Assembly: GCA_034522055.1 (NCBI GenBank)
Contig: JAXHLS010000002.1
Coordinates: 372,001-436,000 of the forward strand
Direction of reading: 5' to 3'
Source: Gammaproteobacteria bacterium
GTDB taxonomy: Bacteria > Pseudomonadota > Gammaproteobacteria > JAABTG01
Length of the DNA: 64,000 nt
Position 1 is the stretch's first letter. The number at the start of each line of letters is the position of its first letter. Shown here in pieces: positions 17,332 through 22,234 of this stretch. A model generated the notes under the pieces. The model was given only the letters and a program-made list of their open reading frames with translations. It was not told the DNA's origin and did no database searches. A program made the translations under genes and the position numbers.

Positions 17332-17380
17332 GGGAAATGGGAAATGGGAAATGGGAAATGGGAAATGGGAAATGGGAAAT
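17332..17380. repeat. Heptanucleotide tandem array GGGAAAT (7 units)
   Basis: Seven perfect GGGAAAT units run without interruption directly behind the 16853 gene. The complementary unit type appears 76 bp downstream, so a transcript could fold into a long hairpin between the two convergent genes. Confidence 0.9.
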
Positions 17381-17456
17381 GCAAGAGTGTAGCCTGACCC
17401 GGCGCGCCCGCCAACAAGGTTTTTTGTTTTTGCTCTCGTTGTTGCTTTTGCTTAAC

Positions 17457-18729: not shown

Positions 18730-19908
18730 ATGGAATCCTACGTATTCGCCACCCAACTGCTGCTGGCCGTCGTGGCCGGGGCGGTGCTGAATCTGACACC
18801 GTGCGTGCTGCCCGCCATCCCGGTGAAGCTGCGCATGATCACCGCCGCCGTGGGGGCGGGCCCGGGGCCGCGGTGGGTGGCGGCCGGAGCGGTGCTGGCG
18901 GGCACCTGGACCTTCTTCGGCGGCCTCGCCCTGGCGGCCGGGGGCGCAGCCTGGAACTGGGGCGAGCTGTTTCAAAGCCCGGCCGTGCGCCTGGGGCTGG
19001 CCCTGGTGCTGGTGGTGCTGGGGCTGATGAGCATGGCCGCCAGGGGCTTCAAGGTGCCGGAGAGGCTCTACCGTCTCGGCGGCCGCGGCTACGCGGAGCC
19101 CTATCTGGCGGGCCTGCTGGCGGCCCTGCTGTCCACCCCCTGTACCGGCCCCTTCCTGGGTGGCGTGCTGGCCTTCGCCGTGACCCGGCCACCGGGCCAC
19201 GTGATGGCCATCTTCCTGGCTATAGGCCTCGGCCTGGCCCTGCCCTACCTGATTCTGCTCGCCTCCCCGCGCCTGCTGGCCCGACTACCGAAAAGCGGCC
19301 CCTGGAGCCGCCGGGTCCATCAGGCCCTGGGCCTGGTGCTGCTGGCCGGCGGGGTGTTCTTCGCCGCCCCCGACCTCACCCCGGCCATCACCCGTCTGCT
19401 ATGGGGCGCGCTGGCCCTCACGGCCCTGGGCTGGGCCCTGTGGGTACTGTGGCAGGGCCCGGACCTGAGAGCCCGGGCCGTGCCCGTGGTATGTGCGATC
19501 CTGCTGGCCCCCCTGGTACCCCTGGCCCTGGACCCGGGCGACGGCGGGCCGGAGGATGTCTTGCCATGGCAGCCCTTTTCCGAGGCCGCCCTGGCCACCG
19601 CCAGGGCCGACGGCCGGCCCGTGCTGGTGGAGTTCACCGCCGACTGGTGCATCACCTGCAAGGTGCTGGAGCGCACCGTCTATCGCCACCCCCGCACCCT
19701 GGCGACGGCCCGGGAGGCCGGCCTCGTGACGTTGCAGGTAGACCTCACCGCCGCCATACCCGCACTCCAGGCCCGGCTGCTGGGCTGGGGCGGCGCCGGC
19801 ATACCCTTCGCCGTAGTGCTGGACGGCGAGGGCGAAGTGGTGAAACGCCTGCCCGACATGTTCCAGCGCGACACCCTGGTGGCGGCCATCCGGGCCGCCC
19901 GCGGCTGA
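18730..19908 (+). CDS. DsbD-like thiol:disulfide interchange protein lacking the alpha domain
   Basis: This 392-residue inner-membrane protein starts directly in the membrane (beta) domain: C25 in [11 protein letters not shown] and C138 in [11 protein letters not shown] are the paired membrane cysteines that carry electrons across the membrane in DsbD. The C-terminal thioredoxin-like gamma domain has W306-CITC-310 in [12 protein letters not shown]. coli DsbD also has an N-terminal periplasmic alpha domain; here it is absent. The next gene, 7 bp downstream, carries an alpha-like domain at its C-terminus, so the two proteins probably work together in supplying reductant to the periplasm. Confidence 0.87.
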
Positions 19909-19915
19909 CGAGACC

Positions 19916-22234
19916 ATGACCTTGAAGAACCCCTTTACCCCTCTTGTCCTGTTGACCCTTGCCGCGGTCCTGCCCGCCGGCGCCGCCGCACCCCCCGACG
20001 CCCCGGCCGCGAGTGGCGGCCATCGTCTCGCCGACGCCACCAGCCCCTACCTCCAGCAACATGCCGGCAACCCGGTGGAATGGTATCCCTGGGGCGAGGA
20101 GGCCTTCGAGAAGGCGCGCCGCGAGGACAAGTTCATCCTCCTGTCCGTGGGCTACTCCACCTGCTACTGGTGCCACGTCATGAAGCGGGAGTCCTTCGCC
20201 GACGAGGAGACGGCGGCGCTGCTGAACCGCCACGCCGTGAGCATCAAGGTGGACCGCGAGGAACGGCCCGACGTGGACGCCATCTACATGACGGCGGTGC
20301 AACTGCTGGCCGGCCATGGCGGCTGGCCCATGACCCTGCTACTGACCGCCGACCTCGAGCCCTTTTTCGCCGCCACCTACCTGCCCCGGGACCGCTTCCA
20401 GGGCCTGATCCGCAATGCTCGGGAGCTGTGGAACGACAACCGCCCCGCCGTGGAGGCCCAGGGCGCGCGGGTGGCGGCCGCCATCCAACACGCCGGCCGG
20501 CTGCCCGGCGAACCCCTCGCGACCCTGCCGGACGAGGCCCTCGCGGACCAGGCCGTGGCCCGCCTGGCCGAGCGCTTCGATACCTTCGACGGCGGCTTCC
20601 AGCAGGCGCCCAAGTTTCCCATGTCCTCGATCCTGGAACTGCTGCTGGACCGTTACGAGCACGAAGGTGACACCCGGGCCCTGGACATGGCCACCACCAC
20701 CCTCGGCGCCATGGCCCGCGGCGGCATCCACGACCAGGTGGGCGGCGGTTTCCACCGCTATGCCATCGACAACCAGTGGCTGGTACCCCACTTCGAGAAG
20801 ATGCTCTACGACAACGCCCAGTTGCTGCACACCTACGCCCGCGCCCACGTCCTCACCGGCAACGCCCACTTCGAGCGCGTGGCCCATGACATCGTGGCCT
20901 ACGTGGAACGGGATATGACAGGCCCCGGCGGCCTGTTTTACTCGGCCCAGGACGCGGAGGTGGATGCCGTGGAGGGTGAGTCCTACCTGTGGACCCCGGA
21001 AGAACTGGCGGAACTGCTGCCCGCCGCCGATTACGATCTGGTGCGCCGGGTATGGGGCCTCGACGGTCCGCCCGACTTCGAGGGCGGGCATATCCTCCAC
21101 TGGCCGCGGGGCTACGCCGCCACTGCCGCCGCCCTGGAGATAACAATCGGGGACCTGATGGCCCGCCTCGAGCCCATCCGCACCCGCCTGCTGGCCAGCC
21201 GCCAGCAACGCCCCCAGCCCCACCTCGACGACAAGGTCATCACCGCCTGGAACGGCCTCATGATCTGGGCCCTCGCCTACGCCGGGGAGGTGCTGGAGCG
21301 ACCCGCCTACGTGGCCATGGCCGAACGGGCCGCCACCGCCCTGCTGGCCACCCTGCGGGACGACCAGGGCCGCCTGCTGCATGTCGCCCGTCACGGCCGC
21401 GCCCGTCTGGACGCCTACCTCGATGACTATGCCGCGGTGATCCTCGGCCTCACGGAACTCCACCGCGTCAGCGGCGAGGCAGCCTGGCTGGACGAGGCCC
21501 GGATGCTGGCCGACACCATGCTCGCCACCCTGAAAGACCCCGCCGGCGGTTTCCATTACGCCCCACCCACGGTGGACCACCTGCTGGCCCGCCCCAAGGC
21601 CACCCATGACGGCGCCATGCCCGGCGCCGACAGCCTCGCCACCCGCGCCCTGGTGGCCCTCGCCAGGGAGACGGACGACAGACGCTACGCCGCCGCGGCC
21701 GCCGCCACCTTGCGGGCCTACGGCCCCCTGCTGGGAAAGGCCCCCGACGACATGCCCTACATGCTGTGGGGTCTGGCCGACTATCGCCGCGCCGGCCTCG
21801 CCGAGGATACCCCCGCGGCGCCCGCCATCGCCGCCCTCGAGACCACCTCGGACCACCTGCGCATCAGTGCCCGCCGCCTCCCGGGCGACGGCCACCGCCT
21901 GGAGGCCACGCTGCACCTGGCCCCCGGCTGGCACGTGAACGCCACGCCCGCCTCCCTGGACTTCCTCACCGCCACCCGGGTGCGCGCCCGGGCCCAGGGG
22001 GAGGTTCTGGCCCTGACCGTGGACTACCCGCGGGGCGAGAAGATGGATACCGGCCTCGGCACCCCCATCCGCATCTACGGTGACGGCACCCGTCTCAGCG
22101 CCGTCGCGGACCCGCCGCTGCCCGCCGGCACCACCGTCACGGTCCACGCCCAGGCCTGCAACGACAGCGGCCGCTGCCTGGCCCCCGCCGAGGTCACGAC
22201 CCGTCTCGAAGGGCCACCGCCTGCCGCCCCCTGA
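19916..22234 (+). CDS. Exported DUF255 thioredoxin-domain protein with a DsbD-alpha-like C-terminal domain
   Basis: This 772-residue protein has a signal peptide (cleavage near residue 24). The DUF255/YyaL/SSP411-type thioredoxin domain ([17 protein letters not shown]83-YWC-86-H) is followed by the large alpha/alpha-toroid-like domain. The last 130 residues add a segment ([19 protein letters not shown]) ending in C748-x5-C754 ([11 protein letters not shown]). This matches the redox-active C-x5-C pair of the DsbD N-terminal alpha domain by eye. Most family members are not exported and lack this tail. It is co-transcribed with the alpha-less DsbD-like gene. Substrates are unknown. Confidence 0.85.

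Follow-up and report, generated by a model that had tools for sequence, protein, structure and literature searches.

According to excerpts of the published accounts, Escherichia coli DsbD passes electrons from thioredoxin to its beta domain, then to gamma, then to alpha and finally to client proteins (PMC4460558, PMC7347389), and the Cys pair of alpha is C103/C109 (PMC7347389). The same partial sources describe CcdA as beta alone and ScsB as a transporter of the DsbD superfamily (PMC4460558). In Neisseria, the N-terminal thioredoxin-like domain of PilB, a multidomain periplasmic protein, is reduced by DsbD alpha (excerpt of PMC6210582). Among proteins with a DUF255 domain, DsbH of Chlamydia, after which the Pfam family is named, has been characterized as a periplasmic oxidoreductase with a reducing role (excerpt of PMC5193440), and YyaL of Leptospirillum is listed as cytoplasmic with an unclear role (excerpt of PMC7084401). 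In this study, we analyzed two adjacent genes, P0001 and P0002, in a 64,000-nucleotide stretch of Gammaproteobacteria bacterium DNA (the window; GenBank assembly GCA_034522055.1, contig JAXHLS010000002.1), which spans positions 372001-436000 of contig C2 within a 5.14-Mb genome (G000). As judged from sequence and structure models, the pair is likely to be a split form of DsbD that supplies one particular partner, a DUF255 protein predicted to be exported. Coordinates, strand, the 7-nt gap and the named residues all proved to be as claimed in a preliminary description of the locus. The features of the pair are as follows.

18730-19908, forward strand: gene 1, P0001, 392 residues, DsbD beta and gamma without alpha.
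18754-19365, forward strand: beta, DsbD_TM, residues 9-212 (Pfam PF02683); C25 codon 18802-18804, C138 codon 19141-19143.
19567-19824, forward strand: gamma, Thioredoxin_7, residues 280-365 (Pfam PF13899); W-C307-I-T-C310, Cys codons 19648-19650 and 19657-19659.
19909-19915, forward strand: intergenic gap of 7 nt between P0001 and P0002.
19916-22234, forward strand: gene 2, P0002, 772 residues, signal-like N-terminus, DUF255 and a C-terminal predicted DsbD alpha.
19916-19990, forward strand: signal-peptide-like N-terminus, about residues 1-25 (hydrophobicity rule).
20024-20485, forward strand: DUF255/Thioredox_DsbH, residues 37-190 (PF03190); C83-Y-W-C86-H87, Cys codons 20162-20164 and 20171-20173.
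20513-21790, forward strand: helical rest of the DUF255 core, about residues 200-625 (7tkv alignment to residue 610; helices in a weak full-length model).
21869-22204, forward strand: predicted DsbD alpha domain, residues 652-763 (PF11412; AlphaFold2 fold); C748 codon 22157-22159, C754 codon 22175-22177.

P0001 carries the membrane and thioredoxin domains of DsbD without alpha, as the preliminary description had held. It matched DsbD_TM at 50.8 bits (cut-off 27.1) and Thioredoxin_7 at 56.9 bits (cut-off 27), and Pfam returned no DsbD_N match in P0001 even at E values up to 1. The first hydrophobic stretch starts at about residue 2 by the hydrophobicity rule. The expected Cys residues, including those of the WCITC motif, are in place and are conserved. 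In an alignment of eight rows (A3), C138 is kept in all eight, C25 in the seven rows that reach it (the row of L113 is cut and was not counted), and C307 and C310 of gamma are invariant.

The C-terminal tail of P0002 is a DsbD alpha domain by sequence family and predicted fold. Residues 652-763 matched PF11412 (DsbD_N) at 31.1 bits (cut-off 25), and the score was 35.6 bits in a six-frame search of the host genome. An AlphaFold2 model of residues 641-772, built with 22 relatives, gave a predicted local distance difference test (pLDDT) score of 93.9 and a predicted template modeling (pTM) score of 0.87. When this model was compared with the Protein Data Bank (PDB) by Foldseek, all 18 matches at E values up to 0.001 were DsbD alpha, the best being 3pfu (E 1.5e-6, TM 0.61/0.67); VIA-align gave Z scores of 10.3-11.8 for DsbD alpha and the N-terminal domain of ScsB, and 8.1 for the best other protein. 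Sequence-only PDB matches of the tail were weak (E 0.11); in the alignment, C748/C754 stand opposite the two Cys residues of alpha in E. coli DsbD. All 29 complete DUF255 tails from a search of the host's class have this pair (L039, cut by a contig end, was left out), as do all six tails encoded beside a beta-gamma gene, two of which also belong to the set of 29. Furthermore, the motif Q-A-C-N-D-x-G-x-C-L-x-P is common to the tail and to stand-alone alphas adjoining beta-gamma genes (8/8 alignment rows). The C748-x5-C754 pair is thus present and conserved, and its role may be a redox one. The resemblance to DsbD alpha with a C-x5-C pair, first noticed in the preliminary description, has been borne out by the Pfam score above the cut-off and by the predicted fold: the modeled tail folds like DsbD alpha, and the Cys pair is conserved in homologues.

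The remainder of P0002 belongs to the DUF255 family. Residues 37-190 matched PF03190 (Thioredox_DsbH/DUF255) at 215.1 bits (cut-off 27), and PDB entry 7tkv, titled Thioredox_DsbH domain-containing protein, matched residues 34-610 (E 7e-101), the alignment ending at residue 622 of the 668 in the 7tkv chain. The score against the NCBIfam DsbH model NF043050 was 16 bits, below its cut-off of 190. The N-terminus is signal-like by the hydrophobicity rule, which suggests that P0002 is exported. By the same crude rule, in which some misses may stem from wrong start choices, signal-like N-termini were found in 6/6 proteins paired with beta-gamma, 17/28 fused proteins that stand alone (solo), 4/28 tail-less proteins and 0/1 for the L161 protein. 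The C-x-x-C of the DUF255 domain is kept in all six paired proteins.

Where do other beta-gamma proteins of this kind find their alpha? P0001 was searched against the same 369 class genomes that were used for DUF255. Six further beta-gamma genes were found in short frames, each followed by a gene for a protein of about 200 residues ending in alpha, and all six downstream alphas scored above the DsbD_N cut-off; a contig end truncates G335, and G314 (= L137) starts at one, so that a lack of N-terminal alpha is not visible at these two. For 291 loci matched in a scan of named genomes, the analysis covered the 80 with the best scores. The top 33 of these (L126-L158) have a beta-gamma gene of the P0001 kind, with alpha on a separate protein at 22, on a DUF255 protein at five, fused behind gamma at five and lacking at one (L132). 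Among the remaining 47 loci (L159-L205), beta is preceded by a match to the alpha profile, in many cases a weak one, at 35, and 12 were not classed. Four of the 33 are the same records as G001, G281, G174 and G314; together with G212, G089, G335 and the window, there are 37 distinct beta-gamma loci. Alpha lies directly downstream or is fused at 36 of these 37, and Pfam confirmed it in 14 of the 36, all 14 that were given to Pfam. All 22 separate alphas have an N-terminal hydrophobic stretch, pointing to anchored proteins. Collectively, beta-gamma proteins of the P0001 family almost always have an adjoining or fused alpha, and the DUF255-alpha protein is one of three recurrent modes. The preliminary description had contrasted this locus with alpha-beta-gamma in one chain as if it were exceptional; instead, alpha outside such a chain is a recurrent arrangement.

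The combination of beta-gamma with DUF255-alpha, which the preliminary description had proposed to seek in other genomes, is present in five besides that of the window and extends to Desulfuromonadales. Besides the window, it occurs at L126 (Thiotrichales bacterium S21.Bin127, of the window genus; G001 is the same record), in two Desulfuromonadales (L136 and L150), at L149, whose record title names a deltaproteobacterium, and in the gammaproteobacterium of L146. Pfam confirmed the four pairs beyond the window genus, that of L136 barely (25.6 vs 25 bits). In the genomes of L136, L149 and L150, which are of unstated completeness, the DUF255 tail is the sole DsbD_N match. Other DsbD_TM matches in these genomes are short frames of 253-302 residues, three in L149 and five in L150, with none in L136. 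The L126 genome also has a two-alpha DsbD. In 297 genomes of the L136 phylum, two matches among those listed extend into the tail: that of the L136 genome itself and a partial one in G529, which has C-x5-C spacing and whose upstream side is off the contig. No beta-gamma gene was found in the flanks (up to 1.5 kb) of the 28 DUF255 loci without a tail that were fetched from this phylum (0/28).

Comparison with tail-less DUF255 proteins indicated what alpha may replace. Among the fetched loci, 56 tail-less proteins have an intact C-terminus (from among L008-L033, L040, L042, L072-L073, L161 and L216-L243), and 50 of these end in C-x4-C-x2-P, commonly as A-Y-V-C-x4-C-x2-P, where 0.2 would be expected from shuffles. 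Four of the other six have C-x4-C without that Pro. This C-terminal motif is a possible redox pair. In alpha-bearing proteins the segment is gone and alpha follows the core through a linker of about 27-63 residues, which has no Cys in 33 of the 34 distinct proteins listed (the exception being L060). Because the segment is gone and alpha follows the core, alpha stands where the tail-less proteins have their Cys pair. It has probably taken over from a relay built into the protein, and so connects DUF255 to the electron supply of the membrane.

DUF255 proteins with an alpha tail are not rare in the class. A DUF255 match running into the tail was found in at least 30 of the 369 genomes, a count based on matches down to E about 7e-182 (the match in G012 ends inside the tail); the rarity implied by the preliminary description was therefore overstated. 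Among the class loci read, a beta-gamma gene adjoins the DUF255-alpha gene in the window genus only (G000 and G001). A search with a three-sequence model found none in the stretches read around 27 other class loci with a complete DUF255-alpha gene (0/27), the stretches of L060 and L088 being short or at a contig end. The solo tails differ from the paired ones in Cys spacing. C-x5-C was found in 25/25 separate alphas, 6/6 paired tails, 4/5 permuted chains (L156 is unreadable) and 10/10 canonical alphas. Thus, 35/35 readable alphas tied to beta-gamma have C-x5-C vs C-x4-C in 27/27 solo class tails; the 27 are mutually related and do not represent 27 independent events.

Phylogenetic analyses gave a partial picture of how these proteins are related. 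In a quick tree of DUF255 cores, scored by the Shimodaira-Hasegawa-like approximate likelihood ratio test (SH-aLRT) without bootstrap, the six paired cores form one clade (99) beside 28 solo DUF255-alpha proteins (81), and both lie inside a group (98) that holds every signal-like protein of the tree. Canonical N-terminal alphas (10 rows) split from all other alphas at 100/100 in both alpha trees, in which, with 129 columns, many forks are open and the bootstrap had not settled. The window tail groups with six separate alphas in the smaller alpha tree (95/91). In the larger one it joins a group (82/85) made up of separate alphas, the tails of paired proteins and 24 solo tails. The 24 solo tails form a 100/100 clade there, and L093-L095 fall elsewhere. 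A single clade of 29 tails was not rejected in the tail tree (p-value of the approximately unbiased test (p-AU) 0.356; 0.221 without L093-L095), and a core tree with all fused proteins together had a log-likelihood 14.94 higher than the free tree (p-AU 0.794). Between alpha joining DUF255 once or several times, and between fusion and fission, the trees support no choice. A recent copy of alpha from the host's own DsbD was considered as the source of the tail and rejected, as the window alpha belongs to a separate family by the 100/100 split.

If the E. coli order applies at this locus, cytoplasmic thioredoxin would reduce C25/C138 of beta in P0001, which would reduce C307/C310 of gamma; these in turn would reduce C748/C754 of alpha on P0002, and alpha would reduce C83/C86 of DUF255, in cis or in a second copy of P0002. 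DUF255 is placed at the end of the chain because the E. coli order, applied here, ends on C83/C86, which lie on the same chain as alpha. The gamma-to-alpha step is well supported by linkage. The functional link between P0001 and P0002 suggested in the preliminary description gains from the coupling at 36 of 37 loci, the recurrence in six genomes and the tail being the only alpha found in three of them, the electron flow itself being inferred. The logic of fusion points the same way, the same kind of alpha being fused to gamma in L152-L155. The alpha-to-DUF255 step would follow from the fusion of the two domains and from the replaced Cys pair.

Several observations weigh against a dedicated split DsbD. 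P0001 falls below the cut-off of the NCBIfam DsbD model NF001419 (102.3 vs 330 bits), and its best NCBIfam models, a DsbD-like selenoprotein (151.1 vs a cut-off of 805) and DsbD, both remain below cut-off. Leu714 of the tail aligns with Phe70 of the E. coli DsbD cap loop, the role of which is treated in an excerpted source (PMC7347389). The full-length model of P0002 is weak (pLDDT 67.6, six rows) and cannot place alpha against C83/C86. The L146 genome has another DsbD_N match, in a 617-residue frame (an ordinary DsbD with a single alpha), and this protein, or the ordinary two-alpha DsbD of the host genome, could do the job. At L215, the upstream side of a C-x5-C tail is off the contig. Since the 27 solo loci show no beta-gamma gene in the stretches read, alpha on DUF255 does not require one. 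Conversely, alpha is not always needed, because the beta-gamma gene of L132 has no adjoining alpha and Desulfosarcina (L161) has beta-gamma paired with a tail-less DUF255 gene in a genome that gave no DsbD_N match; against this, the 28 further tail-less loci of the same phylum had no beta-gamma gene in flanks of up to 1.5 kb.

These observations bear on the alternatives to different degrees. One explanation, which we consider unlikely, is that alpha of P0002 is reduced by P0001 and serves other periplasmic clients (DsbC, CcmG or TlpA-like proteins), DUF255 being a mere carrier or having an unrelated activity. Stand-alone anchored alphas do occur without DUF255 at 22 of the 33 named loci (among the best 80 of 291), and an excerpted source gives several clients for E. 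coli DsbD alpha (PMC7347389). However, all six paired proteins keep the DUF255 C-x-x-C, 50 of 56 tail-less proteins have a C-terminal Cys pair of their own at the place of alpha, and in L161 a tail-less DUF255 gene directly adjoins beta-gamma. A still less probable explanation takes the neighborhood as incidental: the ordinary DsbD of the cell would reduce alpha on P0002, a role that it can be presumed to have for the solo proteins, and P0001 would serve something else. It would have to account for a pair that recurs in distant lineages and forms one clade, for three pair genomes (of unstated completeness) that show no other DsbD_N match, and for a Cys spacing that tracks beta-gamma linkage (with the relatedness of the 27 solo tails kept in mind), even though the 27 solo genes without a beta-gamma neighbor and the two-alpha DsbD of the host speak for it. 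That the tail is an unrelated immunoglobulin-like domain, such as a CopC-like one, with a structural disulfide is very improbable: CopC/PcoC folds are also among its structural matches (Z about 6.1-6.3), but the sequence matches the DsbD alpha family, which also comes out on top by Foldseek E value and by Z, and the motif is common to stand-alone alphas beside beta-gamma. As an identity for the tail, a CopC-like domain was rejected by its Z of about 6 vs 10.3-11.8, and a chance resemblance to DsbD alpha was rejected by Pfam, pLDDT, Foldseek and the VIA-align Z scores.

The split DsbD dedicated to DUF255 therefore remains our preferred reading of the pair. A broader proposal, which we put forward tentatively and regard as possible, is that DUF255 (YyaL/SPATA20-type) proteins generally run on electrons passed to a Cys pair at the C-terminus, usually that of a built-in C-x4-C-x2-P segment, and that, in the envelope, this segment was swapped for a DsbD alpha. 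On this view, the window pair and the L161-type pair, like the separate alpha and the permuted beta-gamma-alpha chain, would be stages of a single modular electron supply in the periplasm, with alpha moving from partner to partner.

Additional observations were made around these genes. Four loci (L152-L155, from Thiomonas and metagenome-assembled genomes titled Proteobacteria) encode a permuted DsbD, with beta, gamma and alpha in one frame of 537-568 residues. In two of the five permuted chains, Pfam found DsbD_TM, Thioredoxin_7 and DsbD_N in that order. The L153 gene lies at L153:4339-6006, with a redoxin-like gene directly upstream, and the alpha part of the Thiomonas delicata gene (L156:4375-6000) is broken by a frame change. 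In Desulfosarcina alkanivorans (L161:1879-5658), the tail-less DUF255 gene lies directly upstream of the beta-gamma gene. At L108, L127, L128, L132 and L143 (picked by eye, uncounted), split-DsbD genes lie near genes for multicopper oxidases, cation efflux, MerR and a heavy-metal ATPase. Some solo DUF255-alpha genes adjoin disulfide genes: DsbB in three related genomes (one checked by Pfam), DsbA in one and a redoxin-like gene in two (L075, L077, L078, L076, L085 and L092), these neighbors having been read by eye, some with a Pfam check, and given without an enrichment count. The host genome itself also encodes an ordinary DsbD of 741 residues with two alpha domains (found in a six-frame genome search), the tandem alphas lying at G000:C2:1710219-1710977; two matches in a single frame were also seen in rows of another search (uncounted). 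It further encodes a tail-less DUF255 paralogue whose N-terminus is not signal-like by the hydrophobicity rule. Near the pair, positions 17337-17400 of the window hold a short repeat, one frame of which reads GNGKWEM repeatedly, and a similar-looking repeat lies near the pair of a sister genome (L034:7786-8511).

To our knowledge, DUF255 proteins have no settled function. That one of them is wired to parts of DsbD suggests a C-x-x-C held in the reduced state by electrons from the membrane supply, and alpha on an exported DUF255 protein suggests a supply line dedicated to that protein; the locus offers a two-gene system in which such reduction is directly testable. Furthermore, alpha behaves as a mobile module, found N-terminal, separate, behind gamma or on a client, and the order of DsbD domains is therefore more variable than one would judge from the E. 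coli protein. Each of the parts is already known, and it is their arrangement that seems new: no description of this pair was found among the listed titles and abstract starts of the open-licence literature, outside which a survey of the DsbD superfamily may mention alpha-less forms.

Compared to known systems, the pair combines familiar parts in an unfamiliar arrangement. First, it shares with DsbD of E. coli and N. meningitidis the Cys pair of beta, the C-x-x-C of gamma, and the C-x5-C and predicted fold of alpha. In contrast to the one-chain alpha-beta-gamma of DsbD, alpha here lies at the C-terminus of a second protein, falls in a separate alpha family (the 100/100 split) and has Leu714 at the place of Phe70. 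Second, the N-terminal domain of ScsB resembles the P0002 tail (6c29, Z 10.8), and the five eye-picked split-DsbD loci near metal-resistance genes recall ScsB as well; unlike ScsB, P0001 has no long N-terminal periplasmic region before beta, and alpha is on the second protein. Third, the membrane part of beta is common to CcdA and P0001, which differs in having gamma besides. Fourth, tail-less DUF255/YyaL-type proteins, 7tkv and chlamydial DsbH share the DUF255 thioredoxin-like domain with its C-x-x-C, and 7tkv also matches the helical core. P0002 differs from the tail-less proteins in its signal-like N-terminus and in having alpha instead of the C-x4-C-x2-P segment, and from chlamydial DsbH in lying far under the NCBIfam DsbH cut-off (16 vs 190). 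Finally, PilB likewise has its thioredoxin-like domain within a periplasmic protein of several domains; in that case alpha remains part of DsbD, whereas here alpha is carried by the putative client itself.

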